Source: Antrihabitans stalactiti (lineage in GTDB: Bacteria > Actinomycetota > Actinomycetes > Mycobacteriales > Mycobacteriaceae). From it: a stretch of DNA of 64,000 bases. Under the pieces are notes generated by a model, which made no database searches, was not told the DNA's origin, and was given only the letters and a program-made list of their open reading frames with translations. The position numbers and the translations under genes are program-made. Of the stretch, positions 10,837 to 30,897 are shown one piece after another (positions within the stretch are counted from its first letter, which is position 1; each line of letters starts with the position of its first letter). The DNA lies in the NCBI RefSeq assembly GCF_012932915.1, contig NZ_VCQU01000001.1, positions 434,001 through 498,000 of the forward strand, written 5' to 3'.

Positions 10837-10840
10837 TGGG

Positions 10841-12170: not shown

Positions 12171-12224
12171 AACTCGACGCAAGTGCCGTGCGAGTTCGCA
12201 CCGGTTCGACACTGGCCACGTTTC

Positions 12225-12241
12225 GAATCTATGTTAAATTC
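12225..12241. promoter_or_regulatory. Palindromic operator, copy 3
   Basis: GAATCTATGTTAAATTC, flanked by C and G to give CGAAT...ATTCG. It is centred 71 bases from copy 2 and ends 29 bases before the thiolase start, where it would overlap the promoter or early transcript. The two sites in one intergenic space suggest independent or cooperative repression of the two directions. Confidence 0.72.
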
Positions 12242-12270
12242 GACTGAGACCCCGAGACAAAGGAACCCAC

Positions 12271-13422: not shown

Positions 13423-13428
13423 GCGGCA

Positions 13429-14583: not shown

Positions 14584-14637
14584 CCGAGGCCCTCAGCGAG
14601 GCGTAGACATGTTCGTATCCACTACCAAGGAACCCCG

Positions 14638-16064: not shown

Positions 16065-16928
16065 TCAGCCGACGGGGTTCTTGCCCAGTTCGGCACCGCT
16101 GAGATCGGTGATCTGATCCCACGACGCTGCGACCTCGTCGATCGACGGTGGCACGGTGAAGTTCACACCCTTCGACGCGAACTGCGCGACGCGGTGGACA
16201 TTTCCGCCGCCGACGACGAGAACTGTTCCGGAATCAGCACATTCGTCGCTGACCAGATACCCGACCACAGGAGCGACCTGCGCCGGCGGAAGTGCGGCAA
16301 GAACCTCGGCGGGTGCCATGTCCTCGGTCATTCGCGTCGCAGCAATGGGCGCAACCGCGTTGGCGAGGATGTTGTACTTGCGGCCTTCGATGGCGAGCGT
16401 GTTGACCAGACCGACAAGCCCGAGTTTCGCTGCCCCGTAGTTTGCCTGGCCGAAGTTGCCGTAGATGCCACTCGTCGACGTCGCCACGACGACCCGCCCA
16501 TGCCGCTGCTCCCGGAAGTACGGCCACGCGGCCCGCGTGACGTGGAATCCGCCGAACAGGTGCACGCGTTGTACCGACTCCCAGTCCGCGACCGACATCT
16601 TGTGGAATGCGCCGTCGCGCAGAATTCCCGCGTTGTTGATGACCCCGTGCACCGCGCCGAACTCGTCGATCGCAGTCTTGATCAGGGCTTGCGCCCCTTC
16701 TTCGTTCGCAATGTTGTCGTAGTTTGCAACCGCAGTGCCGCCGGCCGCGCGGATCTCGCTCACGACGCCGTCTGCCATCGCGCTACCTGCACCCGATCCG
16801 TCCCTCGCGCCACCGAGGTCGTTGACGACGACAAGGGCTCCTTCACGCGCAAGCAACAGCGCGTACTCCCGTCCGAGGCCACCACCGGCACCGGTGACAA
16901 CGACGACTCGATCGGTTACTCCTGGCAT
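16065..16928 (-). CDS. Short-chain dehydrogenase, MFE-2/17beta-HSD4-like 3-hydroxyacyl-CoA dehydrogenase
   Basis: NAD-dependent SDR of 287 residues. TGAGGGLGREYALLLAREGA, VNDLGG, NNAGILRD and catalytic Ser/Tyr/Lys in TSTSGIYGNFGQANYGAAK match the dehydrogenase domain of peroxisomal multifunctional enzyme type 2 and its mycobacterial relatives. Expected role: oxidation of a 3-hydroxyacyl-CoA to the ketoacyl-CoA for the thiolases encoded just upstream in the operon. It is the last gene of the 15-gene minus-strand operon, 28 bases after the SCP-type thiolase, and runs into the palindromic repeat. Confidence 0.92.
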   Translation of the reverse strand: MPGVTDRVVVVTGAGGGLGREYALLLAREGALVVVNDLGGARDGSGAGSAMADGVVSEIRAAGGTAVANYDNIANEEGAQALIKTAIDEFGAVHGVINNAGILRDGAFHKMSVADWESVQRVHLFGGFHVTRAAWPYFREQRHGRVVVATSTSGIYGNFGQANYGAAKLGLVGLVNTLAIEGRKYNILANAVAPIAATRMTEDMAPAEVLAALPPAQVAPVVGYLVSDECADSGTVLVVGGGNVHRVAQFASKGVNFTVPPSIDEVAASWDQITDLSGAELGKNPVG

Positions 16929-16956
16929 GCCATATCTCCTTCAGACTTGTTGTAAA

Positions 16957-18150
16957 TCAACCTTTTTCGCGCCCAACCAGGGACACGAACGACACACAGC
17001 TACCCGGGCGGCCGCCGAGGTTGTGCGTCAAAGCGATGCGTGGATCATCGAGCTGCCGCTTTCCTGCGAGCCCCTGCACTTGGAGCCACATCTCGTAGAG
17101 CATCCGCAGTCCGCTCGCACCCACCGGGTGACCGAACGACTTCAAACCACCATCAGGGTTGACCGGCAACCGACCGTCGAGGTCGAAATCGCCTGCGAGA
17201 CTGTCCTTCCAGGCCTGACCCCGGTCGGTAAAGCCGAGATCCTCCATGAGGATCAACTCGGTCGGTGTGAAGCAGTCGTGCACCTCGGCGAGCGAAATCT
17301 CGGTGCGCGGATCCTCGATACCAGCCTGCGCGTATGCATCTCGTGCGCTGTGGACCACTTCGGGGAACGTCGTGTAGTCGTACTCCGGGTCCATCGCACC
17401 GCGTGCCGGACCCGCGACCAGCGAGAGCGCCTTCACGAACAGCGGCGTGTCGGTGTAGTTGTACGCGTCCTCGGCGCGCACGATCAACGCGCACGCGGCA
17501 CCGTCGGACACGCCTGAGCAGTCGAAGATGCCGAGCCGGCCGGCGACCAACGGTGCGCCCGCGATCTTCTCCTTCGCGACCTCAGCCCGGAACTGCGCCT
17601 TCGGATTCAACGCGCCGTTGCGGTGGTTCTTCCACGCCACATGGGTCATCGCGTCGCGCATCGCCCCCGGATCGACCCCGTACCGCGCGCAATAGGCAGG
17701 ATCCAGCAGCGAGAACGCTGCAGGAGCCGTCATCGACAACTCGGCGGACGTCCCGTCGCCAGGCGGATCACCGCGCAGCAACCCGGAGAACCCCGAGTCC
17801 TTCAGCTTCTCGACTCCGATTGCCACCACCCGGTCGTAGGCACCTGATGCCACGCCGTAGCACGCATTCCGAAACGCCTCGGACCCACTGGCACAATAGT
17901 TTTCGACCCTCGTGACCGGTTTGTAGTCCAAGCCGAGGGGCTTGCTCAGCGTGAGCCCGCTCTGCCCTGACCCCAACGTTCCCAGCCAGTACGCGTCGAC
18001 ATCAGCGCGATCGAATCGTGGGTTTGCGTCGAAGCAATCCGCCATAGCATCGATCAGCAGATCGTCGGCCGAGCGGTGCCAATGTTCACCGAACGACGTG
18101 CAGCCCATGCCGACTATCGCAACCTTGTCTCGAATTCCGTTGCTACTCAA
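16957..18150 (-). CDS. SCP-x-type thiolase / thiolase-like lyase
   Basis: Thiolase-fold protein of 397 residues related to SCP2 thiolases and steroid Ltp proteins. The nucleophile Cys86 is in ENYCASGSEA and the histidine in KSFGHPVGASG, while the C-terminus reads NLGGRPGSCVSF. The start is TTG at 18150 with GGAAGG nine bases upstream, overlapping the previous gene by 8 bases. In steroid and ibuprofen catabolism such proteins pair with a DUF35 protein to deacylate a hydroxyacyl-CoA; here the adjacent gene carries a DUF35 domain, which supports a joint complex (inference). Confidence 0.88.
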   Translation of the reverse strand: MSSNGIRDKVAIVGMGCTSFGEHWHRSADDLLIDAMADCFDANPRFDRADVDAYWLGTLGSGQSGLTLSKPLGLDYKPVTRVENYCASGSEAFRNACYGVASGAYDRVVAIGVEKLKDSGFSGLLRGDPPGDGTSAELSMTAPAAFSLLDPAYCARYGVDPGAMRDAMTHVAWKNHRNGALNPKAQFRAEVAKEKIAGAPLVAGRLGIFDCSGVSDGAACALIVRAEDAYNYTDTPLFVKALSLVAGPARGAMDPEYDYTTFPEVVHSARDAYAQAGIEDPRTEISLAEVHDCFTPTELILMEDLGFTDRGQAWKDSLAGDFDLDGRLPVNPDGGLKSFGHPVGASGLRMLYEMWLQVQGLAGKRQLDDPRIALTHNLGGRPGSCVSFVSLVGREKG

Positions 18151-19489
18151 TGACTCGAGCCTTCCAGAAATAGTTGTGCACTCCCCCAGCGGTATTCAGG
18201 CGACGGAACGTGAGTGCGACCCGCGCACCGACTTTCAAGTCGGCACCAGTCGACTCGGCAACCTCGAGCGTGTAACGGCCCCCGCCGTCGAAGTCCACAA
18301 CCGCTGCGACGACGGGCGGCGCAGGCGAGTACGCGAGGCGGTCTACCGTGAATGTCGCGACTGTCCCCTTCGCGCGAGCGAGCGAGCGCGCGGTCATCTG
18401 ATCGACGGCACCGCACCGTTTGCACACCCGAGCGGGCGGTAGGTGGACGAGATCGCATGCTGTGCAGGTGGTTCCGGTAAAGGCGAATTTCCACGCTCGT
18501 GCGCGAGCCGAGGGTGGCGCTGCTGCCCGGTCGGGCTCGGGTCGGCGCGGCGGCTCTCGGTCGAGGATGCCGCGCCAGCTGAGATAGGTCGCGTACGGCA
18601 CTTTGGTACCGGCGGCGAGCTGCTCGGCAACCGAAACCGGCTGTCTACCAGCAATGATTCGGTCCGTGGTTCGTAGCAACAGACCGTCGCAACCGTCGGC
18701 CGCCGAGAGCACCATGATGGTTTCGTCCGGACCGGCGTTGTCGAGCACACTTGCCAATGCCACTCCCACATCGGCCGTGCCGGCGTGCCCAATCGGCGAC
18801 GACGTGGTCGACAGGCGGCCCTGCACCAGCGTTCCAGCCCGCTTGACCACACCCGAGTTGGGCGAGACCACGACGACGTGATCGGCATCGACAGCCAATT
18901 CTTTGACGACCCGCTCGATCAACGGGACGTACTCGTCGAGTCCGAACCGCTCTTCCCACTGACTTCCACCGCCGGCTCCCGGTGCGCGCCATCGGTCCAG
19001 AAACTCACTTGTAGTGCTGTATTCGGCAACCACTTCGGCAATCGCATGCGACGAATCGCCGAACACGAACGCCGCTGCCCCATCGCCCCCACCGAGCTCG
19101 TCCGCGGAACCGGGTCGACCGACGCGGACTTCGGCAAGGACCGCCACACCACCGGACGCGCGTGCTGCTTTGAGCGCCGCAATACCACTGCGCGCCGACC
19201 CTGCAACGTCCGCCGCAAACACGTCGTCCGGAAGCCCAAGTGCCGCATGCTGGGCCGTCGCGTTCGTCTTGTCCGCGTAGGCCGGGCTCGTCGTCGCGAA
19301 GAACAATGCGTTCGGGGCGCCGGTCAGTGCCGTGCATGCCGCCGCCACGCCCATCGTTGTGCTGTCCTCGTCGAACGACGCCACGACGCGCGCACCCTTC
19401 CCCGCCTTGATGCCCAACGTTGCTGCGATGTCAGCCAGCTGGACCCGCCCGCTCGGGAGGTACGTGCCGTAGCCGATGATCCCGTTCAC
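18143..19489 (-). CDS. HMG-CoA-synthase-like (thiolase fold) protein fused to DUF35 Zn-ribbon/OB domain
   Basis: Fusion of 448 residues. About 1-330 is an HMG-CoA synthase/ketosynthase-III-like fold (GIIGYGTYLPSGRV ... GIKAGKGARVVASFDEDSTTMG). About 342-448 is DUF35: a zinc ribbon with Cys342, Cys345, Cys356 and Cys359 followed by an OB fold. By eye the nucleophilic Cys site reads DVAGSARSGIAAL, so the Cys appears to be Ala. The N-half may therefore not form an acyl-enzyme. GTG 19489 overlaps the upstream stop (GTGA). Separate archaeal HMGCS and DUF35 proteins, and Ltp2-type DUF35 partners, are the known parallels. Confidence 0.85.
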   Translation of the reverse strand: MNGIIGYGTYLPSGRVQLADIAATLGIKAGKGARVVASFDEDSTTMGVAAACTALTGAPNALFFATTSPAYADKTNATAQHAALGLPDDVFAADVAGSARSGIAALKAARASGGVAVLAEVRVGRPGSADELGGGDGAAAFVFGDSSHAIAEVVAEYSTTSEFLDRWRAPGAGGGSQWEERFGLDEYVPLIERVVKELAVDADHVVVVSPNSGVVKRAGTLVQGRLSTTSSPIGHAGTADVGVALASVLDNAGPDETIMVLSAADGCDGLLLRTTDRIIAGRQPVSVAEQLAAGTKVPYATYLSWRGILDREPPRRPEPDRAAAPPSARARAWKFAFTGTTCTACDLVHLPPARVCKRCGAVDQMTARSLARAKGTVATFTVDRLAYSPAPPVVAAVVDFDGGGRYTLEVAESTGADLKVGARVALTFRRLNTAGGVHNYFWKARVIE

Positions 19490-20682
19490 GGTGCCTCGAA
19501 AAGTGCCGCCATGCCCTGGCCGCCACCGATGCACATCGACTCCAGCGCGTATTTGCCGCCGCGCCTGCGCAGTTCGTGCAGCATCGTCGTCATGATCCGG
19601 ACGCCGGTCGCACCTATCGGATGGCCGAGTGAGATCCCGGACCCGTTGACGTTCAATCGTTCCTGATCCTCGAACCCCCAGCCCTTCAGCACGGCCAGCA
19701 CTTGCACCGCGAAGGCCTCGTTCAACTCGACGAGGTCTACATCATCGAAGGACAACGTGGTCCGCGCGAACAGCTTCGCGACCGCAGGGACCGGACCGAT
19801 CCCCATCCGGGACGGCTCGCACCCCGCGGCTGCCCAACCCCGCAAGTAGCCGATCGGCTCGAGACCCAACTCGTCGAGTTTGTCCTCGGCGACGACGAGA
19901 CAGGCTGAGGCAGCATCGTTTTGCTGACTTGCATTGCCGGCGGTGACAACTCCGTTCTTCGACAGCGTGCGCAGCCGACCGAGCGATTCGACGGTCGAAT
20001 CAGGGCGGATACCTTCGTCTCGGTCGAAGACGAGCGGATCACCCTTGCGCTGAGCAACTTCCACCGCGACGACTTCGTCTTTGAACAAGCCCGCGTCCCA
20101 CGCCGCCGCCGCACGTTGATGACTGCGTGCCGAGAACTCGTCGGCCGCTTCGCGACTGATGTCGTAGTCGACAGCCAAATTCTCTGCGGTCTCGATCATC
20201 CCGCTGATCCGGCCGAACCTGGCCTCGGGTTGCGATCGCTCCCGGCCGCGATCCAACCGGTCGTACAGCGCGACGTTGCCCGCGCGCGAACCCCAGCGCA
20301 TGCTCTGCGTGTAGTGCTCGATGTTGCTCATTGATTCCACACCGCCTGCCAGCACGACGTCGGCAGCCTCGGTCTGGATCATCATCGCCGCGGTCACGAT
20401 CGACTGCAGTCCACCGCCGCAGCGTCGATCGGTCTGGAAGCCCGGAACCTCGATCGGCAGACCGGCATTCAGCGCGGCCCACCGGCCGATGCATGGCGCC
20501 TCAGAATTTGCATAGGACTGGGCGAACGACACGTCATCGATCCGGCTCGGGTCCACCCCAGACTGCTCGACCACCGCCTTGATGATCACCGTGGCCAACT
20601 CCTCGGCAGGCACCGTACGCAAAGCGCCGCCGAACGTGCCGACCGGCGTACGAAGCGGACTGACGATTGCCGCTCTCCTCAT
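19486..20682 (-). CDS. Thiolase (acetyl-CoA C-acyltransferase)
   Basis: Classical degradative thiolase of 398 residues: MRRAAIVSPLRTPVG start, nucleophile Cys in TDRRCGGGLQS, NEAFAVQ, GSGISLGHPIGATG and the C-terminal CIGGGQG. The ATG at 20682 overlaps the CoA-transferase stop (ATGA). It is the third thiolase-fold gene in this operon, which implies either several chain-shortening steps or division of labour between thiolytic and aldol-type cleavage. Confidence 0.94.
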   Translation of the reverse strand: MRRAAIVSPLRTPVGTFGGALRTVPAEELATVIIKAVVEQSGVDPSRIDDVSFAQSYANSEAPCIGRWAALNAGLPIEVPGFQTDRRCGGGLQSIVTAAMMIQTEAADVVLAGGVESMSNIEHYTQSMRWGSRAGNVALYDRLDRGRERSQPEARFGRISGMIETAENLAVDYDISREAADEFSARSHQRAAAAWDAGLFKDEVVAVEVAQRKGDPLVFDRDEGIRPDSTVESLGRLRTLSKNGVVTAGNASQQNDAASACLVVAEDKLDELGLEPIGYLRGWAAAGCEPSRMGIGPVPAVAKLFARTTLSFDDVDLVELNEAFAVQVLAVLKGWGFEDQERLNVNGSGISLGHPIGATGVRIMTTMLHELRRRGGKYALESMCIGGGQGMAALFEAP

Positions 20683-21932
20683 GAATCCTCCTTGCGGGCA
20701 ACCGCTTCGGTTAGTCGGTCTCGATGGTCGGGGTGTGCGATCGCGATCATCGCCTTGCGTCGTTCGGATAGCGGCAGACCCCGGAGGTCCGCAACCCCGT
20801 ACTCGGTGACGACGACACCGGCGTCGGCGCGAGATGTACTCACCGGACCGGACAACCGCGACACGATTCGAGTGCGATCCCCGGCCGTCGATGGCAGCGC
20901 GACAACCGGCACCCCGCCGGCCGATCGCGCTGCGCCACGCAGGAAATCGCCACCACCACCAACGGCACCTACATAACGGCCGGCCGCGACCTCGGCGTTG
21001 CATTGTCCGGTCAGGTCGACTTCGATGGCCGAGTTGATGGCGACCAGAGCCGGAGTTGCAGCGAGCACCGCTGCGTTGTGGGTGTACATGGTCGGTCGCA
21101 GTTCGATCGCAGGATTGTGATCGGCAAAGTCGAACAGACGCCGCGTGCCGTGCAAGAGCCCGGCGACCGACACTCCGGTGTCGTTCGTCTTTCGTGCGTT
21201 CGTGACGACGCCGCGTTCAATCACCTCGACCACCGAATCGGTCAGTAGGCCGGAATGAATACCGAGGTCGTTGCATTCGAAAAGCTCGTTGAGCACTGCG
21301 TCCGGAATGGCACCGATCCCGAACTGCAACGTGGATCCGTCGGCGACGAGTGATGCGACCTTCTTCGCGATCTGCTGTGTCTCGTCCGTACTTCGGGCTG
21401 CGGGGACCTCCGCAGGTGCTCTGCTGACCCGGACGGCGACGTCGATATCGGCCGCCGTCAGATATCGCGCGCCGTGGGTGAACGGCACCTGATCGTTCAC
21501 TTCGGCAACCACCACCCGCGCCGAATCAATTGCAGCAGAGAAGTAATCGTCGGCAAGGCCGAGGCTGTGCCGCCCTGCGTCGTCGGCGGGCGAACACTGG
21601 ACGAGGACGATGTCGGCCGCCAGCGGACCCGCGGTGAGCAACGTCGGCAACGTCGAATAATTGCCCGGGTAGATGTCGAGGACGCCTGCATCCGCGAGCG
21701 CGCGGTTGCTACCTGTTCCGCAGTAGCTGACGAACCGAATGTGATCCGCGTGCTCTGGTCGCACCGAATTCGCGGCTGGAATACCGATGAAGCAGGTCAC
21801 GCCGCCCAAGTTTGCGCGTTGGTCCAGCAGACGCTCGACCAACGTGACGGGCTCGGCACACGCCTGACCCCATACGATGACGTCGCCAGGCCGCACGAAG
21901 TCGGCAAAATCGACCTCATCGGAATCGATCAC
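20679..21932 (-). CDS. Cat1/4-hydroxybutyrate-type CoA-transferase
   Basis: Acetyl-CoA hydrolase/transferase family member of 417 residues that moves CoA between acids. The catalytic Glu is in INSAIEVDLTGQ and the CoA-site glycines are in GAVGGGGDFLRG. It overlaps both neighbours by ATGA. Role inferred: recycling CoA onto the growth substrate or from the end product (acetyl- or succinyl-CoA donor). Bacterial itaconate CoA-transferases of the RipA type belong to this family, but nothing here fixes the substrate. Confidence 0.9.
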   Translation of the reverse strand: MIDSDEVDFADFVRPGDVIVWGQACAEPVTLVERLLDQRANLGGVTCFIGIPAANSVRPEHADHIRFVSYCGTGSNRALADAGVLDIYPGNYSTLPTLLTAGPLAADIVLVQCSPADDAGRHSLGLADDYFSAAIDSARVVVAEVNDQVPFTHGARYLTAADIDVAVRVSRAPAEVPAARSTDETQQIAKKVASLVADGSTLQFGIGAIPDAVLNELFECNDLGIHSGLLTDSVVEVIERGVVTNARKTNDTGVSVAGLLHGTRRLFDFADHNPAIELRPTMYTHNAAVLAATPALVAINSAIEVDLTGQCNAEVAAGRYVGAVGGGGDFLRGAARSAGGVPVVALPSTAGDRTRIVSRLSGPVSTSRADAGVVVTEYGVADLRGLPLSERRKAMIAIAHPDHRDRLTEAVARKEDS

Positions 21933-22144
21933 GTCTGCACGTCCTCACGCCAGCGATCCGCCGAAGGGTCCAACAGTTGCTGCAAGTGCCCATCGGATAT
22001 CCAGACGATCGTCTCCAATTCGAGGGCATCAAGGAAGCGGACCTGACCGGTTTTCAGGTCCTCCAATCGCAACCGTGGGCTGTTCGCCGAACGGTCGATC
22101 GATACCGCGACCTGTGCGAATTCGCTCGCGACGACACCGTCCAT
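21929..22144 (-). CDS. Small conserved protein linked to Rieske dioxygenases
   Basis: A 71-residue soluble protein with no signal or membrane segment. Its middle (SPRLRLEDLKTGQ ... LDALELETIVW) follows the pattern of a short actinobacterial family that is annotated, probably loosely, as dihydrodiol dehydrogenase and is found next to ring-hydroxylating dioxygenase genes. It overlaps the CoA-transferase by ATGA and lies 25 bases after the dioxygenase beta-subunit gene. Operon position and tight coupling indicate a real gene. Its function is unknown; it is too small to be a dehydrogenase. Confidence 0.75.
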   Translation of the reverse strand: MDGVVASEFAQVAVSIDRSANSPRLRLEDLKTGQVRFLDALELETIVWISDGHLQQLLDPSADRWREDVQT

Positions 22145-22169
22145 GGCTCGCTCCTTAGATCAAACTGGG

Positions 22170-22661
22170 TCAAATCAAAAACCCGAGGGTGGGCAATGCC
22201 TCGGCGCTGTTGACGAGCACGACCGTCTTACGGACCAGCTTGGTCTCGCCGTCGACCGACCGCAGCACGTAGGTGATCCGGCCCGCCCACATTTCGATGC
22301 CGCGCGGCTTCGATTCGTAGAGAACGAAATTGGCGCCGACCTGGGTTTCCGTGTCCGTCGACGACAGGATCTCCACGTTCGAGATCGTGCGTCGCAGGTT
22401 CGACGGTGGCGACTGCGCGTACCGCTTGCCGGTGCGTAATTGCTTGAGCCTGGTGGAGATTCGACGGCGGTTGTCGTAGATCACCGATACCTGATGCAGC
22501 GGGTCGGCCAGCGATCCGCCGGCTGGCACCCAATACAGCGCGTCGTCGGTCCAGAGCGCCTCCCACGAGTCGTAATCGTGCTCGTCGGCATAGCGTGCCT
22601 CGCGGTAGATGAACTGCTCGATCTCGCGAAGGTCGGCGATCGTCGCTTCCGTTGTTGTCAT
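22170..22661 (-). CDS. Ring-hydroxylating dioxygenase beta subunit
   Basis: Small structural subunit of 163 residues of an alpha3beta3 Rieske dioxygenase. It shows the NTF2-like cone-fold features FIYREARYADEHDYDSWEAL and YDNRRRISTRLKQL. The ATG at 22661 overlaps the alpha-subunit stop (ATGA), and a longer frame to 22790 is a shadow of the alpha gene. Co-translation with the alpha subunit confirms the assignment. Confidence 0.93.
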   Translation of the reverse strand: MTTTEATIADLREIEQFIYREARYADEHDYDSWEALWTDDALYWVPAGGSLADPLHQVSVIYDNRRRISTRLKQLRTGKRYAQSPPSNLRRTISNVEILSSTDTETQVGANFVLYESKPRGIEMWAGRITYVLRSVDGETKLVRKTVVLVNSAEALPTLGFLI

Positions 22662-23923
22662 TTCGCCTCCATCAGACCCTTGTAGTGGCGCCAGAACGCG
22701 CGCATCGCGGTTTCGTCCGTCGCGCCGCCGACGAGGAAGCCGTCCTCGTCGGTCCTTTCGCGTCCGGCGCCGCGCCGGATGTCGAGCCATTCCGGCCGCA
22801 GTTGAGACACTCCTACTTGATTGCGCTCATACATTTCGGTGTCGTCGGCGAGGAGCATTCCTGCGGGACCGACCGATCCGATCGATTGCGACAGCATCCG
22901 CTTGTTCAGTTCCGGAGCGCCCTTGAGCTGCACTGCCGTCGAGTACTGGACGCACTCCGACGCCGAGATCGGCTGAATGTTGAACACCTGGATCTCTGCG
23001 ATGAAGAGGTTCGGGAAGACCATCACGTGCGGGCCACCCTCGATGAGAATCTGCTCCGCATCGTCGCCATGCAACGCGCGCATTTTCGCGACGTAGTCCG
23101 GTACCCGGTCGGGAGTGGTCCCGAACCAGCGCATGGGCTCGGCGAATTTGCGAAATTCAGGACGCAGATCGTTCTCGCTGTGCCCATTGCCCAACGCGCG
23201 CGTCACCGCGGTCGAGTTGTCGCTGTAGAGCGGGCCGATGGTGCTGCCCGTGACGGAGAAAATCGAACCGTGCACGAACTGAGGGTGATAGCCGTCGGTT
23301 TCGTTCTCCGCCAACAGCTTCCAGTTGGCCCGGGTCTTGTGCTTGAGCCAACCGGCGTCCAGCTCGACCCTGCCCTCCGGCGACAGTCGTGCCAATCGGT
23401 CGATCTCCCCCGCCGCCGCCCCGAGATGCTCTTCGATCGACGGTACGTCCGGATTGAAGCTGCCGAATACGAAGCCCTGGTACACAGCAACTTTCGGCAC
23501 AACGCCGAGGCCGAGGTCCAACTTGTTCGTGCCGTCGTAGCCCTTGCGGTAGGGGTAACCGAGCAGTTCTCCGGTGTTGCGGTACGTCCACCCGTGATAG
23601 GGGCACCGGAAGGAACTGGAATTTCCGGAAGGTTCGTCGCACACAAGGTTGCCCCTGTGCGCACACCGATTGACGAGCAGATGCACGTCACCCTCACGAT
23701 CGCGGGTCATCACGATGTCTTGCGGACCGATGTTCTTTCGGACGTAATCGTTGGGCATCGGGACTTCACTGTCGTGACCGACGAACACCCAACCGCCGTA
23801 CCAGATTCGCTGGAGCTCGTCGGCAAAGATAGCGGGGTCGGTGTACAGGCTGCCGTGGACTCGCTCGGGCTCGATCAGCTTCGAATAGTCAACGCGCGGA
23901 ACTGAATCGGTGGTGATCGTCAT
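22658..23923 (-). CDS. Ring-hydroxylating dioxygenase alpha subunit (Rieske)
   Basis: Catalytic subunit of 421 residues that adds O2 to an arene to form a cis-diol. The Rieske ligands are Cys87, His89, Cys107 and His110. The mononuclear iron site fits Asp210, His213 and His218 in ETDGYHPQFVH, which is canonical. No ferredoxin or reductase gene is adjacent, so electrons must come from elsewhere (a reductase is encoded at 1-921). It overlaps the acyl-CoA ligase upstream and the beta subunit downstream. The neighbouring ligases suggest that the substrate may be an aryl-CoA ester rather than a free acid (inference; ipfAB is the known precedent). Confidence 0.94.
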   Translation of the reverse strand: MTITTDSVPRVDYSKLIEPERVHGSLYTDPAIFADELQRIWYGGWVFVGHDSEVPMPNDYVRKNIGPQDIVMTRDREGDVHLLVNRCAHRGNLVCDEPSGNSSSFRCPYHGWTYRNTGELLGYPYRKGYDGTNKLDLGLGVVPKVAVYQGFVFGSFNPDVPSIEEHLGAAAGEIDRLARLSPEGRVELDAGWLKHKTRANWKLLAENETDGYHPQFVHGSIFSVTGSTIGPLYSDNSTAVTRALGNGHSENDLRPEFRKFAEPMRWFGTTPDRVPDYVAKMRALHGDDAEQILIEGGPHVMVFPNLFIAEIQVFNIQPISASECVQYSTAVQLKGAPELNKRMLSQSIGSVGPAGMLLADDTEMYERNQVGVSQLRPEWLDIRRGAGRERTDEDGFLVGGATDETAMRAFWRHYKGLMEAK

Positions 23924-25584
23924 GCGTACTGCTCCAATCGTTGCTGCACCTGAGCAACCAGGCGAAACTTCTGGACCTTGCCGGTCGGCGTGGTCGGCAA
24001 CTCGTGCGCGTCGAGAAACACGACGTGCCTGGGGACCTTGAACCGCGCCAGCCGCGACTTGCACAGCTCGATCACGGCCTGCTCGTCGATCGTCGCGCCG
24101 GGGGCTTTGACGATGCACGCGCAACCAGCGTCGCCCCACCGCTCGTCCGGAACACCAATGAGATAGGCCTGGCTGATCTCGGGGTGCGCGGTCAGCAGCT
24201 CCTCGATCTCCTTGGGCATGACGAGTTCGCCGCCGCTTTTGTAGAGCTCTTTGCTGCGGCCGGTGACCTCGAGATAGCCGTCGGGTCGCACACGACCCAA
24301 GTCGCCGGAGAAAACCCACCCGTCGCGCAGCCCGTGCGCCGTCTCATCCGGTTTCGCCCAGAAGCCCAGCATGTTGGTGGGGCCTCTGGACACGAGTTCG
24401 CCTGTGGCACCTGCGGGTAGCGGTTCACCGGTCTCGGGATCGACGGTCCGGTACTCCGTCAGACCGCCACCCGGTAACCCCGCAACGCCGGCCATTTTCG
24501 GCCTACCGACCGTCGTCGACGTCAGCTCGAAAGCGTCTTCCGGAAGCGTCAGTGTCATTGCCCCACCGCACTCGGTCATGCCGTAACCGGTGACGATCTC
24601 GGTTGCGCCCAACTCCGCACGCACCCGTTCCCACAACCACACCGGTCCAGGGGCTGCACCGGACAGCACTGCTTCCAAGCTGGATAGATCGAAGGATGCA
24701 CGGTCTGGGTGCTCGAGTATCGCCACGGTCATCGTGGGCACGCAGAGAATGTCGGTTGCTCTGTGTCGCTCCACCCCCGCGAGGTACTGCCGCGGGTCGA
24801 AAGATGTCTGCAGGACCACCGCGCCGCCCACCACCGTCGCGGCTAAGAGCCCTTCGACGTAGCCGAACATGTGATAACACGGCAGCGAGAACAGGATTCG
24901 ACGTCCGTCGCCGAACGCTCGCGTCAGCGCCGACGCGTAGGCCGTGCGCAACACCGCGTCGTGCGTGATGAGAACGCCCTTCGGCGACCCCGTTGTACCC
25001 GACGTGTACAGAATGTCGCCGACAGCTCCAGGATCGACGTCGGCGCCCGCAGTCGGCTCCGCCAATGTCGACAGCTCATCGACGGTCAGCAGTCCGTTTC
25101 GCACGCGCCCGTCGGTCGAGAGCTGAATTACGTTGTTCAGCAGCGGCAGTCGCGATGCTATCTCGTCGAGCATGGCGAGGTAGTCCAAGCCCGCGAAGCC
25201 GGTCATCGTGATCAGCAGTCTGCACTCCGCTTGTGCGAGAACATATTCGAGTTCTGCGGCGCGGTACAGGAAGTTCATGGGGACGGCGACGCCGCCGACT
25301 TTCGCGATCGCAAACTTGATCGGAACGAACTCAGGGTAGTTCGCCATCAGTACACCGACGTGGTCGCCGGGACGAATTCCCAGCTCTACCAAGCCTGCCG
25401 CAAGTCGGTCCGACCATTCGGCGGTCTCGGCGTAAGTCAGAACGCGGTCGTCGGTGATGACGAGCGGTCGGCTGCCGTATCGTTCCGCGCGGTTGTCGAG
25501 CCAGCGACCCAACGACGACGGCGTCCACTGTGGGAACGCGTCGACGAGCGCTTGCCTGCGACGCGCGATGTCAGGACTGGTCAT
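23920..25584 (-). CDS. Acyl-CoA synthetase (AMP-forming)
   Basis: ATP-dependent CoA ligase of 554 residues. The P-loop is YTSGTTGSPKGVL, followed by GYGMTECGGA, SGDLGRVRPDGY and the C-terminal catalytic lysine in PTTPTGKVQKFRL. ATG 25584 has AGGTGA upstream; a GTG at 25593 that overlaps the previous stop (GTGA) is an equal alternative. It directly precedes the dioxygenase genes with a 4-base overlap. Likely role: activating the operon's acid substrate. Confidence 0.93.
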   Translation of the reverse strand: MTSPDIARRRQALVDAFPQWTPSSLGRWLDNRAERYGSRPLVITDDRVLTYAETAEWSDRLAAGLVELGIRPGDHVGVLMANYPEFVPIKFAIAKVGGVAVPMNFLYRAAELEYVLAQAECRLLITMTGFAGLDYLAMLDEIASRLPLLNNVIQLSTDGRVRNGLLTVDELSTLAEPTAGADVDPGAVGDILYTSGTTGSPKGVLITHDAVLRTAYASALTRAFGDGRRILFSLPCYHMFGYVEGLLAATVVGGAVVLQTSFDPRQYLAGVERHRATDILCVPTMTVAILEHPDRASFDLSSLEAVLSGAAPGPVWLWERVRAELGATEIVTGYGMTECGGAMTLTLPEDAFELTSTTVGRPKMAGVAGLPGGGLTEYRTVDPETGEPLPAGATGELVSRGPTNMLGFWAKPDETAHGLRDGWVFSGDLGRVRPDGYLEVTGRSKELYKSGGELVMPKEIEELLTAHPEISQAYLIGVPDERWGDAGCACIVKAPGATIDEQAVIELCKSRLARFKVPRHVVFLDAHELPTTPTGKVQKFRLVAQVQQRLEQYA

Positions 25585-25589
25585 ACTGT

Positions 25590-27203
25590 TCACCTGACCT
25601 CGTCGAGTCGATCGGACAGGATCGCGTCGCGAAGAACGAACTTCTGGACCTTGCCGGACGCCGTCAGCGGTAGTGCGTCGGTAATGAACCACCGCTTCGG
25701 TACCTTGAACGGCGCAACTCGCTGGCCGAGCTGACGACGCACTGATTCGACAAGTTCGGCTGGCCGTCGTTCGCCGCGGACCACGAGGACGGCAGCGACC
25801 GTTTCGCCCCACTTCTCGTGCGGCACACCGACGACCGCCGCCTGTGCCACCGCGGAATGCTCGACGAGCCTGGACTCGACCTCCGCAGGAGCAATATTTT
25901 CGCCACCGCTGATGATGAGATCTTTGAGTCGTCCGGTGAGCGTGATGTAGCCACGCTCGTCCATCGATCCGAGGTCGCCAAGGTGCAACCAACCGTCGCC
26001 GTCGACGGTGCGTGTGGTGGCGTCCGGATCTTTGTAGTACTCGATCATCTGCTGGTATCCACGGGCACAGATCTCGCCCTGTACGCCCAGCGGCGCCGTC
26101 GCACCCGAGACCGTGTCGACGATCTTGACCTCGACCTGACCGATCGGCCGACCCACCGTGCCGAGCTGATCCTCGATCGCGTCGGACCGACGAATCAAGG
26201 TGAGCACCGGGGCAAGCTCGGTCTGGCCGAACAGATTGTGGACCGCGCCGCCGAACACTCGGCGCGCGCCTTCGATCATCACGGCAGGCACATTCGCTGC
26301 TCCACCGAGGATGCTCCGGAACTGCGGTGCGGGTCGGTCGTTGTTCCGCATCGTCTCGAGAAGCGCGCCGAGGATCGTTGGCACAAAGAAGAGCACCGTT
26401 GCCTTCTCCTCGATTGCCCAGTCCAGAACTGACTGGGGCGCAAACGTTTCCACGAGTAGCGCGGTGCCCGCGATGGACAGCGGGCCCAAGGTCCCGATGA
26501 CACACGACGCGGTATGGAACATCGGCAGCGGGTTGACGCACACCGCGCCTTCGGTGATCTCCGCTGCTTCCATCGTCAGCATTGCGACGTTGACGAGCGA
26601 ACGGTGGCGAAGCAGAACACCTTTAGGCAGTCCCGTCGTTCCCGAGGTGTACTGCAGCATTGCAGGAGCGTCAGGATCGGTGGCAGTGGAGACGAACTCG
26701 GCCGAGCCACCCCGCCAACGATCCCGCTCGGACAGGCTGATGACGTGCACCAACGATGGGACGTCCGAGGCAACCTTCGAGACCACGGCAGCCATGTCGT
26801 AGTCCCGATTCGCATCGGCGTGAATAAGGACCGTCGCACTGGAATGCGTCAAGGCGTAACGCAATTCGTCCGCACGGAAGACCGGATTGATCGCGACCAA
26901 CGTTCGGCCGGCAAGCGCGGCGCCGTACTGCACGATCGGCCATTCGACGACGTTCGGTGCCCAGATCGCAACGAAGTCGCCGGGCTCGGTCAGCTCGGTC
27001 AGAGCCGACGCCACCCGCCGGGCCTCCTCGTACAGCTCGCCGTAAGTGAGACGGCGCAGTTGGGTGGTTCCGTGCGGGGTACCGACGAGCGCCACCCTCG
27101 CATTGTGGGTGTCTGCGCGTTCCGCAAGCAGAGTGCCGACCGTGTGCTCCGACAGCGCTACCGAACTGTCTGCTGGCCAATATGATTCGACGAGTGTGGT
27201 CAT
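25590..27203 (-). CDS. Acyl-CoA synthetase (AMP-forming), second copy
   Basis: CoA ligase of 537 residues with YTSGTTGLPKGVL, GQTELAPV, LHLGDLGSMDERGY and LTASGKVQKF. The ATG at 27203 has an exceptionally good AGGAGGAGA site. The two ligases of this operon differ strongly in sequence, so they probably activate different acids, for example the parent compound and a ring-cleavage product. Confidence 0.93.
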   Translation of the reverse strand: MTTLVESYWPADSSVALSEHTVGTLLAERADTHNARVALVGTPHGTTQLRRLTYGELYEEARRVASALTELTEPGDFVAIWAPNVVEWPIVQYGAALAGRTLVAINPVFRADELRYALTHSSATVLIHADANRDYDMAAVVSKVASDVPSLVHVISLSERDRWRGGSAEFVSTATDPDAPAMLQYTSGTTGLPKGVLLRHRSLVNVAMLTMEAAEITEGAVCVNPLPMFHTASCVIGTLGPLSIAGTALLVETFAPQSVLDWAIEEKATVLFFVPTILGALLETMRNNDRPAPQFRSILGGAANVPAVMIEGARRVFGGAVHNLFGQTELAPVLTLIRRSDAIEDQLGTVGRPIGQVEVKIVDTVSGATAPLGVQGEICARGYQQMIEYYKDPDATTRTVDGDGWLHLGDLGSMDERGYITLTGRLKDLIISGGENIAPAEVESRLVEHSAVAQAAVVGVPHEKWGETVAAVLVVRGERRPAELVESVRRQLGQRVAPFKVPKRWFITDALPLTASGKVQKFVLRDAILSDRLDEVR

Positions 27204-27216
27204 GTGTCTCCTCCTA

Positions 27217-27990
27217 CTAACTGCCGGTAAAGACCGGGCGGCGACGGTCGTGGAATGCGCTGACACCCTCGGCGAAATCGTCGGTGTCGAAAAGCTTGGC
27301 CTGGCTGTCGACCTCGTGATCGAGGATCGCGAACGGATCGCTCGGCCAGCGGGCGAGCAGCGACTTCATTTCCCGAACAGCTAGCGGCGGGGCCGCTGTC
27401 ATCGCATCTGCGTCGGCGAGGGCGGCGGTCAGGACCGATCCGGGTTCTGCGACGGCATCGACCATGCCCAGTTCGAATGCTTCGAGCCCGGACAGCCTGC
27501 GCGGCAACAGCATCAACTGTTTGGCCCGCGCCGGCCCCACGCGCGCTGGTAGCGAGGCGAAGATCCCCATGTCACCCGCCAGACCGACACCGGTGAAGGC
27601 GGTGCTGAACACAGCATCCGATGCGGCGACCACGCGGTCGCATGCCAAGGCCAGCGACGTCCCGGCGCCGAATGCCGAACCTTCCACCGCGGCAACAACA
27701 GGTTTCGGACCACCCCAGATCGCGCGGACGACGCGTTGCGCGGCCTGGGCTCGCGGACGAGTCTTCTCTTCGCCTTGGCGCGCCATCGTCGAGATGTCGC
27801 CCCCCGAACAGAAGGACGAACCGGCTCCGGTCAGCACGATCGCCCGAATCATGCTGTCCGCCATTGCGTCATCGAGTCGTTCGGCCAACGCGACGCGCAG
27901 CGGGAGGTCGATCGCGTTGCGTCGCTGCGGACGATTCAGCGTTATGATCCGCACGGCGCCGCGGTCTTCGGTGACGACCACGTCGGTCAT
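27217..27990 (-). CDS. Enoyl-CoA hydratase/isomerase
   Basis: Crotonase of 257 residues. The oxyanion-hole segments are FCSGGDIS and GSAFGAGTSLALACD. The loop that carries the second catalytic Glu reads GLAGDMG, so Asp or no acid is present there. It begins with GTG-ATG directly after the TAG of the preceding gene; ATG 27990 is chosen (GGGGAG upstream). It is one of three tandem crotonases, which may include isomerase, hydratase and C-C hydrolase activities. Confidence 0.92.
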   Translation of the reverse strand: MTDVVVTEDRGAVRIITLNRPQRRNAIDLPLRVALAERLDDAMADSMIRAIVLTGAGSSFCSGGDISTMARQGEEKTRPRAQAAQRVVRAIWGGPKPVVAAVEGSAFGAGTSLALACDRVVAASDAVFSTAFTGVGLAGDMGIFASLPARVGPARAKQLMLLPRRLSGLEAFELGMVDAVAEPGSVLTAALADADAMTAAPPLAVREMKSLLARWPSDPFAILDHEVDSQAKLFDTDDFAEGVSAFHDRRRPVFTGS

Positions 27991-27993
27991 CAC

Positions 27994-28791
27994 CTAACTC
28001 CCCACGAACTTCGGGGATCGCCGCTCGATCACGGCGGCGAGGCCTTCGAGCGAATCGGCGGTGCCCGATAGCGCAGCTACGGTCCGCGCTTCTTCCGGGA
28101 GTCGATCGGCGATCGTTGCCCCAACGCCGGCCCACAGCAACCGCTTCGTCGCGCCGACTGCCTTCGGTGCCATATCGGTGAATTGCTTTGCGTAGGCATG
28201 CGCTTCGGACTCGACAGCGTCGTCGTCGACAATCTTGGTCAGCAGGCCGATCGCCAGCGCATCGTCGGCGGTCAACGTCGGGTTCGTCAGCAGGATCTCG
28301 GTCGCCTTGCGTAGGCCGACCAGCTGCGTCAGCGTGACCGATACGCCGGCGTCGGGCGCCATGCCCACGCGGACCGCACCGGACATGAACTTCGCCGAGC
28401 GGCCCGCGATGACGAAGTCGGAAGCGCACACCAGGCCGAAACCACCTCCGCCCGCTGCAAAGCCGTGAACACCGGCAATGACAGGGGCCTCCAGTTGGAT
28501 CAGCGCGGCGATCGCGAGTTGAAGCCAGGCTGTCGCCTCGCGCAGATAGTCGGGAAGCTGCTCACCCTTGGACGCGAACGTACGGACGTCGCCGCCCGCG
28601 CAGAAGTGCTTCCCCTCGCCGGTCAGCACCACGGCACGGACCGACGGGTCGCCATGGCATTGGAGGACAGCCGCGTGCAATGCCTGCAGGAACGGCACGT
28701 CCATCCCGTTGGCTGCCTGCGGGCGATTCAGGCGCAGGCGGGCGATTCCGTCGTCGTCGATGTCGAGCAGGATTGGAGCAGAGTCAGGCAT
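27994..28791 (-). CDS. Enoyl-CoA hydratase/isomerase
   Basis: Crotonase of 265 residues with HFCAGGDVRTF and HGFAAGGGGFGLVCASDFV. Its active-site loop is GMAPDAGVS, lacking the hydratase Glu and favouring an isomerase or unconventional activity. It is co-translated: its start region overlaps the next crotonase by 8 bases and its stop abuts the following start. Confidence 0.92.
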   Translation of the reverse strand: MPDSAPILLDIDDDGIARLRLNRPQAANGMDVPFLQALHAAVLQCHGDPSVRAVVLTGEGKHFCAGGDVRTFASKGEQLPDYLREATAWLQLAIAALIQLEAPVIAGVHGFAAGGGGFGLVCASDFVIAGRSAKFMSGAVRVGMAPDAGVSVTLTQLVGLRKATEILLTNPTLTADDALAIGLLTKIVDDDAVESEAHAYAKQFTDMAPKAVGATKRLLWAGVGATIADRLPEEARTVAALSGTADSLEGLAAVIERRSPKFVGS

Positions 28792-29551
28792 TCGAGGATC
28801 CCTTCGTGAACGAATCGATTCCTGCGCCCGCTGAGGAACGAGTTAGGTGCGTAAGGACGGCCGTGTGCTCCATTGCAAGCCCTTCGGCCAGCGGCAAGGT
28901 CAGGCCCGCGTAGACGAGCCGCTTGCTTTCCGCCAGTGCTACGGGGTCTTTGGCCGCAAGCTTCTGCGCAAAGTCGGTGACGGCGTTTCCGAACTCCTCC
29001 GCCGCAAACTGCCGATACGCCAGCCCCCAAGCGATGGCCTCTGGGGCGGTCAGTCGATCGCCGGTCAGCATGTGCGCCAGGGCGCGCTGCCGTCCAACGA
29101 GTCGGGGCAGCCGCTGACTACTCCCCCCACCCGGGATCTGACCGAACCGTGAATGAGTGTCCGCGACAATGGCGTTCTCGTGAATCAGGACGATGTCAGC
29201 GGCTTGCATCAACTCGAAGCCACCCGCCATCGCGTACCCTTCGACGGCGCAGATCACCGGAACCGCCAACTCCTCGATCGTCGCGCAGGCGTGCCCGAAA
29301 TTGCGGAACAACTCCGCCATCGCGTGGACGCCCGCCGCACGCAGTCGCGCCAACTCATGGAAATCGCCACCGACACAGAAGTTTCCGCCGGAGCCGCGGA
29401 TGACGATCACGTTCACATCGTCGACAATCTCGCACAGCGCTCGCCCCAGTTCGCGACCCAGTTCGACGGTGATCGCGTTCATCTGCGCGGGCCTGTTCAG
29501 CGTGATCGTGCCCACTGCCCCGTTTCGTTCGACGAGCACAACGTCCGTCAC
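28784..29551 (-). CDS. Enoyl-CoA hydratase/isomerase
   Basis: Crotonase of 255 residues with NFCVGGDFHEL and EGYAMAGGFELMQAADI. The loop after the oxyanion hole is RFGQIPGGGSSQRLPRLVG, with Gly where a catalytic Glu would stand. It overlaps the SDR gene upstream by ATGA. All three crotonases of this operon deviate at that second acid, which is a noticeable common feature. Confidence 0.92.
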   Translation of the reverse strand: MTDVVLVERNGAVGTITLNRPAQMNAITVELGRELGRALCEIVDDVNVIVIRGSGGNFCVGGDFHELARLRAAGVHAMAELFRNFGHACATIEELAVPVICAVEGYAMAGGFELMQAADIVLIHENAIVADTHSRFGQIPGGGSSQRLPRLVGRQRALAHMLTGDRLTAPEAIAWGLAYRQFAAEEFGNAVTDFAQKLAAKDPVALAESKRLVYAGLTLPLAEGLAMEHTAVLTHLTRSSAGAGIDSFTKGSSNA

Positions 29552-30315
29552 ATCAACCGCCCCCCGCCGACTTCGAGGACAGCGCCCGTCATGTAGCTGG
29601 ACAGACTCGATGCGAGAAACAAAGCAGCGCCTGCAACTTCGGCGGGCTCGCCTGCGCGTTTCATCGGGATGGCCGACTCACGTTCTGCGAACACCTCGGG
29701 CGCCATAGCCTCGGTCATGGCGGTTCGGATCAGGCCAGGTTGAATGGCGTTGACGCGGACTCCTTTGTGCGCGAGTTCCTTTGCCGCAGACTTGGTCAGC
29801 CCGATGATGCCGGCTTTTGCGGCGCTGTAGTTCGTCTGCCCCGGGTTGCCGGACTTACCCGACAGTGACGACATGTTGATGATCGATCCGCTACCGGCTC
29901 CGCGCATGACCGCCGATGCTGCACGCACACCGAGCCAGGTGCCTTTGAGGTGCACGTTGATCACCGCGTCGAAGTCTTCCGGACGCAGATTCCGCAGTGA
30001 CGCGTCACGCGTGATCCCTGCGTTGTTCACGTACACGTCGAGCGACCCGAACTCGCTGACCGCGGTGTCGACTGCCGCCTGTACCGATGCCTCGTCGGTG
30101 ACATTGCACGCGACACCGACGAGACGACCAACTGCGGCGCTCGGCTTGTTCGGATCTGCTGCGAGGGCGGTGGCCGCTGCCGCTGCCTTCTCGCCGTCGA
30201 TATCGGCCAGAACAACGCTCGCACCGTGTGAATAAAAGAGGCGCGCGATTTCCAGACCGATGCCGTTCGCGGCGCCCGTGACCACTGCTGCGTCACCCGC
30301 GACCAGACCGCTCAT
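29548..30315 (-). CDS. Short-chain dehydrogenase, FabG-like
   Basis: NAD(P)-dependent 3-hydroxyacyl-CoA or ketoreductase-type SDR of 255 residues. Motifs: TGAANGIGLEIARLF, NNAGITRD and the catalytic set MSSLSGKSGNPGQTNYSAAK. The ATG at 30315 overlaps the MaoC stop. With the SDR at 16065 it gives the operon two candidate 3-hydroxyacyl-CoA or diol dehydrogenases. One may oxidise the cis-diol made by the dioxygenase (inference). Confidence 0.93.
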   Translation of the reverse strand: MSGLVAGDAAVVTGAANGIGLEIARLFYSHGASVVLADIDGEKAAAAATALAADPNKPSAAVGRLVGVACNVTDEASVQAAVDTAVSEFGSLDVYVNNAGITRDASLRNLRPEDFDAVINVHLKGTWLGVRAASAVMRGAGSGSIINMSSLSGKSGNPGQTNYSAAKAGIIGLTKSAAKELAHKGVRVNAIQPGLIRTAMTEAMAPEVFAERESAIPMKRAGEPAEVAGAALFLASSLSSYMTGAVLEVGGGRLM

Positions 30316-30764
30316 GCCACGAACCGCACGATCGACTGAGCGATGCACGCCGGCTTGGCCGAACCTTCGACCTCGATGGTGACGTCGACCTGCCCCTGCA
30401 CCCCGCCCGGCACCTTCGACACCGCTGCGACGACCGCACTTGCGCGCACTCGGGAACCGACCGGGACAGGCGAGGCGAACCGGACTTTGTCGAACCCGTA
30501 GTTCACGGCCATCGTGATGCCGTCGACCTTGTAGAGCTCGTGCACGAGGACCGGCAACAGCGACAGCGTCAACAAACCGTGCGCGATCGTCGTGCCGAAC
30601 GGGCCTGTAGCTGCCTTCACCGGATCGACATGTATCCATTGGTGATCGCCCGTGGCCTCGGCGAACTTGTCGATGCGAGCCTGATCGATCACGACCCAGT
30701 CGGTGGTTCCCAGGACGTCGCCCTGCGCTGTCGCGAACTCGTCGACACCGTTGTAGACCTTCAC
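30312..30764 (-). CDS. MaoC-like (R)-enoyl-CoA hydratase
   Basis: Single-hotdog hydratase of 150 residues. The catalytic Asp and His are in TGDHQWIHVDP, followed by the GPFGTTIAHGLLTLSL hydratase-2 motif. GTG 30764 is preferred because GGGAGA sits six bases upstream; GTG 30770 is too close to it. It is the first gene of the 15-gene operon. Operator copy 4 lies 36 bases upstream of the start. Confidence 0.92.
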   Translation of the reverse strand: MKVYNGVDEFATAQGDVLGTTDWVVIDQARIDKFAEATGDHQWIHVDPVKAATGPFGTTIAHGLLTLSLLPVLVHELYKVDGITMAVNYGFDKVRFASPVPVGSRVRASAVVAAVSKVPGGVQGQVDVTIEVEGSAKPACIAQSIVRFVA

Positions 30765-30799
30765 GTGCACTCTCCCGTAGCTCGGTTCGGACTTGAATT

Positions 30800-30816
30800 G
30801 AATATAGATTAAAACT
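30800..30816. promoter_or_regulatory. Palindromic operator, copy 4
   Basis: GAATATAGATTAAAACT. The left half fits the shared dyad perfectly and the right half is degenerate. AATATAGATTAAA is identical to the complement of copy 1. It is placed where it could block transcription of the 15-gene operon. Confidence 0.6.
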
Positions 30817-30849
30817 TGGACGAGCGTCAACGTCGGCTGCTACTGTTTT

Positions 30850-30866
30850 GAATCGAACATAAATTC
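30850..30866. promoter_or_regulatory. Palindromic operator, copy 5
   Basis: GAATCGAACATAAATTC, extended by TT and AA to TTGAAT...ATTCAA. It lies 50 bases from copy 4 and 31 bases before the SDR gene at 30898, so the divergent pair carries one site per direction as at 12154/12225. Confidence 0.68.
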
Positions 30867-30897
30867 AAGGACGTACCGGCAGGATAGGAAAACCGCC

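Follow-up and report, generated by a model that had tools for sequence, protein, structure and literature searches.

The window, a stretch of 64,000 nucleotides of Antrihabitans stalactiti (contig NZ_VCQU01000001.1, positions 434,001 to 498,000), carries at 16065-30764 a minus-strand cluster that encodes a Rieske dioxygenase together with enzymes of coenzyme A (CoA) ester metabolism. The original prediction, made from the letters alone, had described it as a fifteen-gene operon with tight junctions, and this is what we find: 15 intact genes without internal stops, 9 of whose 14 junctions overlap while the other 5 are gaps of 3-28 bases. Window genes were annotated by Pfam and NCBIfam scans with curated cut-offs, with PDB comparison for some proteins, and from the first gene to the last they read as follows:

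30312-30764 (-), MaoC-like hydratase, operon gene 1 (PF01575)
29548-30315 (-), SDR2, FabG-type short-chain dehydrogenase/reductase (SDR), ATG start at 30315 (NF004198, 330 bits, above the cut-off of 296)
28784-29551 (-), ECH_C, crotonase (PF00378) with Gly where ECH_A and ECH_B carry Asp
27994-28791 (-), ECH_B, PaaG-like, dioxygenase-linked crotonase (PF00378; PDB matches headed by 6sl9 and 3hrx)
27217-27990 (-), ECH_A, Asp-type crotonase (PF00378; top NCBIfam match oxepin_alt, 202 bits, below the cut-off of 300)
25590-27203 (-), LigB, acyl-CoA ligase (PF00501/PF13193)
23920-25584 (-), LigA, acyl-CoA ligase (PF00501/PF13193)
22658-23923 (-), Rieske dioxygenase alpha subunit (PF00355/PF00848)
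22170-22661 (-), dioxygenase beta subunit (PF00866)
21929-22144 (-), conserved protein of 71 amino acids without Pfam or NCBIfam match
20679-21932 (-), Cat1/4-hydroxybutyrate-type CoA-transferase (PF13336; PDB 3d3u, 7e-79)
19486-20682 (-), canonical thiolase (NF004853, 668 bits, above the cut-off of 551)
18143-19489 (-), fusion of a 3-hydroxy-3-methylglutaryl-CoA synthase (HMGS)-like domain without the catalytic Cys and a DUF35/ChsH2 oligonucleotide-binding (OB) domain (OB_ChsH2_C above its Pfam cut-off; NF003274, 121 bits, below the cut-off of 244)
16957-18150 (-), SCP-x-type thiolase (SCPx) with Cys86, HDCF and GHP (NF004810, 600 bits, above the cut-off of 403)
16065-16928 (-), PRK07791-like SDR, last operon gene (PF00106; top NCBIfam match NF005861, below its cut-off)

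The Pfam and NCBIfam matches agree with the original prediction in the three crotonases, the two SDRs of the operon, the MaoC hydratase and the Cat1-type CoA-transferase. They differ from it in the "further thiolases", of which only one, the canonical thiolase, lies inside the operon, and in the "DUF35 protein", which is the two-domain fusion. As a unit the operon is real, but it makes up the greater part of a more extensive locus of about 5.5-32.4 kb. Actinobacterial relatives from other genera share both its gene content and its gene order, and the core of dioxygenase and crotonase occurs in Nocardia, Gordonia, Nocardioides, Pseudonocardia, Mycobacterium, Bradyrhizobium, Xanthobacter, Hydrogenophaga and others, thus also in Pseudomonadota. 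Because of this recurrence, and because a published gene table from a mycobacterial island is alike (discussed below), we regard the cluster as more than a chance assembly.

Plasmid-borne matches of the alpha subunit come from Rhodococcus (82% and 80% identity, R. opacus PD630 being at 80%), M. avium (73%), Pseudonocardia (70%), Variovorax SRS16 (62%) and Sulfitobacter (55%), followed at 44% by the IpfA proteins of the ibuprofen (ipf) system. At E <= 1e-90 the protein had matches in 20 of the 301 genomes of a family sample, the genome itself included, of which ten share 63-100% identity and the other ten 39-44%, and in 5 of the 396 genomes of a phylum sample, again counting its own; a scan of genome contigs gave at least 79 named loci. 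Smaragdicoccus niigatensis DSM 44881 (L075) is one of the carriers. We grouped the loci by alpha-subunit identity into group A (at least 62.3%), group B (54.5-62.3%) and Ipf-like (38-47%), groups A and B together being called own-type, and neighbours were counted only where at least 3 kb of sequence was available on each side (34 A, 34 B and 18 Ipf-like loci).

In a maximum-likelihood tree of 55 alpha subunits, for which the program warns of long branches, the 21 own-type rows form one clade (support 99/99). Its sister group holds 14 Ipf-like rows, both IpfA proteins among them (98/93), and the two are joined at 96/94. Four BenA rows (100/100), HcaE-like proteins, NdoB and the aniline dioxygenases all lie outside this joint clade, as do L065, L144 and L146 outside the Ipf clade; these three had first been labelled Ipf-like and are among the 18 Ipf-like loci of the neighbour count. 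Next to the joint clade, with weak support (71/69), stands an AndAc-like row on a long branch. The phylogeny proposed as a check of the prediction thus sets the alpha subunit with IpfA and away from the benzoate type, but in a separate sister clade and not inside that of IpfA. The best NCBIfam match of the alpha subunit is nevertheless BenA, which could suggest a benzoate-type dioxygenase acting on the free aromatic acid. We consider this most improbable: the match scores 182 bits against a cut-off of 781, the tree separates the two, and the genome carries a true BenA elsewhere (L002, 794 bits). A search for the HcaE family found no member above the cut-off in 21 genomes.

The gene neighbourhood distinguishes the own-type loci from the Ipf-like ones. 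The beta subunit is present in 68/68 own-type loci, and ECH_B (at least 45% identity, within 10 kb) accompanies the dioxygenase in 32/34 group A and 32/34 group B loci (64/68 own-type) and in none of the 18 Ipf-like loci; in L056 it sits between the alpha and beta genes. LigA was found in 25/34 and the MaoC hydratase, within 10 kb, in 14/34 group A loci.

The 71-residue protein accompanies both own-type and actinobacterial Ipf-like clusters, being found (E 1e-6) in 32/34 group A, 2/34 group B and 6/18 Ipf-like loci, with ten Ipf-like loci at a looser limit. Its model (predicted local distance difference test score, pLDDT, 86) predicts four strands followed by helices, and a fold search returned no PDB match at E <= 0.001. 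A Pur-alpha-like fold was considered and set aside, the matches being weak (template-modelling score up to about 0.6-0.67, E about 1) and not evidence.

With respect to function, the closest described relative is ipfABDEF of Rhizorhabdus wittichii MPO218 (pIBU218) and Sphingopyxis granuli RW412, with which the operon shares Rieske alpha (44% identity) and beta subunits, SCP-x-like and DUF35 proteins and an adjacent CoA ligase (here LigA and LigB), the analogy that the prediction had drawn. The "exact combination" of the ipf system claimed for it is, however, not what the genes encode, since the SCPx protein has thiolase residues, DUF35 forms one protein with an HMGS-like domain and a PaaG-like crotonase is linked to the dioxygenase. 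In ipf the DUF35 protein is short and stands alone, no crotonases are linked and bphC lies beside the cluster. As described in a 2025 paper (PMC12329534), SCP-2 thiolases carry catalytic Cys residues and HDCF, whereas among retro-aldolases Ltp2 carries YDHF, and Sal carries YDCY with Gly at the nucleophile position. SCPx partners were found in 30/39 group A and 12/42 group B loci (within 10 kb) and in 9/18 Ipf-like loci (within 4 kb). Cys86, HDCF and GHP occur together in 28/30 group A and 11/12 group B partners (39/42 own-type); the remaining three read CNEAFGHP, and we interpret them as paralogous canonical thiolases that the search also caught. All 9 Ipf-like partners have Gly, YD(A/P)F and no GHP, and IpfD itself has Gly for the nucleophilic Cys, YDAF for HDCF and no GHP. 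Wherever a partner was found, the residues C/HDCF/GHP versus G/YDxF/no GHP therefore split own-type from Ipf-like clusters.

These residues bear on the side-chain removal that had been predicted by analogy with ipf. In a deacylation of the Ipf type, an arylalkanoyl-CoA would be 1,2-dihydroxylated, SCP-x/DUF35 would split off its side chain, and enzymes from other loci would meta-cleave the resulting catechol. The sister relationship of the alpha subunits, the ligases next to them and the presence of SCP-x and DUF35 domains would all fit such a deacylation. We nonetheless hold it to be unlikely, because the SCPx residues are thiolase-type and not the aldolase-like ones of IpfD, DUF35 is joined to an HMGS-like domain in a single protein, the scanned window genes include no extradiol gene and the linkage of ECH_B would be left unexplained.

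Among the Ipf-like loci there is an actinobacterial cluster type (L031, L032, L057-L062 and L064) in which two ligases adjoin the dioxygenase. In L031 and L032, which are annotated, it also has an OB-fold protein, a Cys-less SCP-x protein, an HpaH-like hydratase, an aldolase and a 2-oxoacid:ferredoxin oxidoreductase.

The HMGS-like domain retains the Cys114 equivalent in 0/42 and the Glu82 equivalent in 2/42 proteins (numbering from the 6esq alignment), and the best fold matches of the AlphaFold model of the fusion (pLDDT 84.8) are the archaeal thiolase/HMG-CoA synthase complex (6et9) and PhlABC/PhlA. A study of PhlABC (PMC6392133) attributes acyl transfer to PhlC residues only, PhlA being without Cys and Glu. 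The pair encoded here resembles PhlACB and the archaeal thiolase/synthase/DUF35 complex in combining an SCP-x-type thiolase with its Cys kept, an HMGS fold without the catalytic Cys, as in PhlA, and DUF35; it differs in that the HMGS and DUF35 domains are fused, the thiolase carries HDCF and the operon looks catabolic. A complex of the thiolase with a presumably inactive scaffold may thus be formed.

The three crotonases fall into two kinds. Asp147 of ECH_B is kept in 71/71 and Asp140 of ECH_A in 27/27, whereas ECH_C has Gly at the corresponding position in 34/36 relatives. ECH_B matches PaaG (4fzw_C) at 4.5e-30 and shares a "PDxG" motif in the alignment to 6sl9; we take 6sl9 and 3hrx to be Thermus PaaG-type proteins and the conserved Asp of ECH_B to be the PaaG catalytic residue. 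Equivalog assignments were rejected for PaaG (ECH_B, 150 bits against a cut-off of 345), BoxC (best window crotonase 20 bits against 712) and BadI (88 bits against 468), and likewise for BadH (170 bits against 431), the top curated match of an SDR that lies just outside the operon:

30898-31695 (+), SDR3, divergent BadH-like SDR (TIGR03206 top match, 170 bits against a cut-off of 431; in 25/34 group A loci)

BadI hydrolytically opens a cyclic 3-oxoacyl-CoA and belongs to anaerobic/alicyclic metabolism. Dioxygenation of an aroyl-CoA at C1 and C2, followed by oxidation of the C2 hydroxyl, would yield such a cyclic 3-oxoacyl-CoA, which would account for the BadH-like SDR and also for the absence of any ring-cleavage dioxygenase. 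As had been predicted for the extradiol type, no ring-cleavage dioxygenase was found when the called genes of the window were scanned with Pfam (E limits of 1e-3 to 1e-10), all but an open reading frame (ORF) at 24871-25734 (+) antisense to a ligase gene being covered. In the comparison of related loci with reference ring-cleavage proteins, CatA produced weak matches (28-31%) in the stretches L173 and L154, apart from the clusters.

Taken together, we propose, with a probability of about 0.45, that the locus serves an aerobic CoA-thioester catabolism in which Rieske dioxygenation at the CoA level is followed by SDR/crotonase ring opening without a ring-cleavage dioxygenase and by thiolysis. 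The dioxygenase substrate would be a CoA ester because the alpha subunit is kin to IpfA and ligases adjoin it; in the ipf pathway, CoA ligation comes first and dioxygenation second (PMC9195938). In the proposed order, LigA/LigB would convert an aromatic, or aromatised alicyclic, acid to the acyl-CoA, the Rieske enzyme would cis-dihydroxylate its ring and an SDR would oxidise the diol. ECH_B, with ECH_A, both Asp-type, would then isomerise or hydrolytically open the ring with no ring-cleavage dioxygenase taking part, and ECH_C, the MaoC hydratase, SDRs and acyl-CoA dehydrogenases could carry out beta-oxidation. The 3-oxoacyl-CoA products would be cleaved by the canonical thiolase and by a two-gene thiolase complex, in which the SCP-x thiolase would act on a presumably inactive HMGS/DUF35 scaffold, and Cat1 would recycle CoA; the complete ring-to-acetyl-CoA route of the original prediction could be realised in this way. 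The scheme resembles the aerobic hybrid Paa and Box pathways by analogy, in that CoA-bound oxygenation would be followed by crotonase chemistry and thiolysis, but a Rieske enzyme stands in place of the di-iron epoxidase and the crotonases score below the PaaG and BoxC cut-offs. With BadH/BadI it shares the top curated match of SDR3 and the envisaged hydrolytic opening of a cyclic 3-oxoacyl-CoA, while the window proteins lie far below those cut-offs.

Several observations weigh against this proposal. As ECH_A, ECH_B and ECH_C all score far below the PaaG, BadI and BoxC cut-offs, ring opening by a crotonase is argued only by analogy. In L136, an own-type locus, an extradiol gene resembling BphC (41% identity) is found some 6 kb away from the dioxygenase, and L120 has an incomplete one at its edge, giving a ring-cleavage gene in 2/81 own-type loci in a comparison with only three reference ring-cleavage proteins. 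At least 6 of the 42 HMGS domains carry a Cys three residues ahead of the place where the catalytic one is expected. Within 10 kb, HMGS is present in no more than 12/34 and SCPx in no more than 9/34 group B loci, so they are not obligate neighbours, and the step served by the thiolase complex may come later or be optional. Finally, the published reading of the M. massiliense gene set as lipid beta-oxidation and genes of the Mce type near related clusters, both described below, favour a hydrophobic and possibly non-aromatic substrate.

Clues to the substrate were sought in the phenylacetate route and in relatives. The genome of the window has no PaaA epoxidase match at E <= 0.001, and together with the PaaG-like crotonases this might suggest that the cluster replaces the phenylacetyl-CoA epoxidase (Paa) route. 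Across the 301-genome family sample (the PaaA and alpha-subunit samples, with the same handles, being taken as one set), PaaA is nevertheless present in 4/10 genomes with an own-type dioxygenase versus 55/291 others (Fisher p 0.11, in the direction opposite to exclusion). As there is no mutual exclusion, the cluster is not a simple stand-in for phenylacetate degradation, and we judge such a replacement improbable. A weak pointer to an aromatic acid comes from the Xanthobacter locus L126. About 5-7 kb away from its dioxygenase, and on the opposite strand, this locus encodes a PaaK-like ligase, with 281 bits against a cut-off of 646, and an HcaD-like reductase, with 314 bits against 450.

Additionally, we compared the wider locus with stretches from five genomes at thresholds of 38% identity and 40% coverage. 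The window counterparts of the co-conserved genes lie at 5534-15795:

14638-15795 (+), ACAD2, acyl-CoA dehydrogenase (PF00441)
13429-14583 (+), ACAD1, acyl-CoA dehydrogenase (PF00441)
12271-13422 (+), ThlP, co-conserved thiolase (NF005865, 670 bits, above the cut-off of 591)
10841-12106 (-), SnoaL-crotonase fusion (PF12680 and PF00378; crotonase part in 17/34 group A loci)
9676-10833 (-), ACAD3, acyl-CoA dehydrogenase, start approximate (domains at residues 154-523 of ORF 9676-11274)
8354-9775 (-), flavin adenine dinucleotide (FAD)-dependent oxidoreductase, amine-oxidase/phytoene-desaturase-like (12/34 group A and 8/34 group B loci)
7497-8195 (+), second TetR regulator, co-conserved (family scan and wide relatives)
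5534-7418 (-), CitE/HpcH-type lyase (6537-7418) and adjoining protein without Pfam match (5534-6535), beside the cluster in 2/5 wide relatives

ACAD3, the FAD-dependent oxidoreductase, the SnoaL-crotonase fusion, ThlP and the second TetR regulator were each found in 5/5 wide relatives, as was ACAD1 (in G004 at only 44% identity and some distance off), ACAD2 in 3/5 and CitE with ORF5534 in 2/5. SnoaL is also fused to a PaaG-like crotonase in Rhodopseudomonas L143 (13680-14867), and matches extending over 90% of the fusion occur in L050, L053 and L054. At the edge of the window (58-5519), a Fer2 reductase, a P450, an SDR and an MdlD-like aldehyde dehydrogenase stand in a row. Of these, the P450, the adjoining SDR and the Fer2 reductase (58-4077) were found in 0/5 wide relatives at the same thresholds, and the aldehyde dehydrogenase gave only 52-54% matches, at a distance, in two of the five.

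A similar assembly has been tabulated before. Genes MMASJCM_1006 to about 1038 of the island MmGI-1 of Mycobacterium massiliense (PMC4263727) are alike in gene set and nearly so in order, as judged by product names and lengths only. That 2014 account lists the set as "lipid metabolism", read as lipid beta-oxidation, with a P450, an SDR, an aldehyde dehydrogenase, a ferredoxin reductase and a phytoene-dehydrogenase-family protein beside the cluster and an mce operon on the island; the parts of it consulted propose no pathway or substrate (PMC4263727). Searches of the open-licence PMC literature brought up no paper assigning a substrate or pathway to this cluster.

The mce operon of MmGI-1 has a parallel in L033, a Mycobacterium avium plasmid record with five MlaD-family (Mce-type) genes at 546-5629, a few kb upstream of the cluster. 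On these grounds we keep another explanation, in which the compound is hydrophobic and alicyclic or terpenoid-like, the Rieske enzyme would hydroxylate a non-aromatic or partly desaturated ring acid-CoA and the remaining enzymes would provide a ring-adapted beta-oxidation. The genes beside the island cluster, their counterparts at 58-5519 of the window and the co-occurring FAD and acyl-CoA dehydrogenase genes would suit such a compound, but at those thresholds none of the five wide relatives showed the P450 close to the cluster, IpfA, the nearest characterised kin of the alpha subunit, acts on an aromatic ring, and L126 carries the PaaK-like ligase. On balance we regard this explanation as doubtful, though worth serious consideration.

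Between the operon and the divergent SDR3/TetR pair lie both copies of an operator-like palindrome, TTGAAT-N9-ATTCAA, detected by a pattern search after an inverted-repeat scan had missed them:

30793-30813, palindrome copy 1, one mismatch (pattern search)
30848-30868, palindrome copy 2, exact (pattern search)
31708-32358 (+), TetR-type regulator, divergent from the operon (PF00440/PF17932)

These 2 sites compare with 0.01 expected in 64 kb. With at most one mismatch the palindrome occurs in the loci of 8/21 relatives (L033, L049, L050, L053, L054, L056, L073 and L076) and in none of the other 13. Judging from this arrangement, the divergent TetR regulator probably controls the operon through the two palindromes.

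Elsewhere in the window, an 899-residue protein (44217-46916, minus strand) with an N-terminal flavin monooxygenase (FMO)-like and a C-terminal Abhydrolase_3 domain resembles a monooxygenase-esterase fusion, and a ligase, a zinc alcohol dehydrogenase, CoA-transferases and an aldehyde dehydrogenase are encoded nearby.

The gene set itself was already tabulated in the MmGI-1 account (PMC4263727); its dioxygenase is kin to Ipf, its predicted cleavage chemistry is not. We tentatively suggest, as a possibility short of an even chance, that the cluster represents a third aerobic CoA-dependent ring-opening strategy beside Paa and Box, with a core spread across Actinomycetota and Pseudomonadota, in which a Rieske enzyme would form the cis-dihydrodiol of an aryl-CoA, an SDR would convert it to a cyclic oxoacyl-CoA, a dioxygenase-linked crotonase of the Asp type would open the ring hydrolytically or by isomerisation and a thiolase would carry out the last cleavage on a dead HMGS/DUF35 scaffold. 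If ring opening at the CoA level does follow Rieske dioxygenation, widespread enzymes now annotated as "benzoate dioxygenase" or "lipid metabolism" would have been misread, and a new aerobic ring-opening route would become testable.

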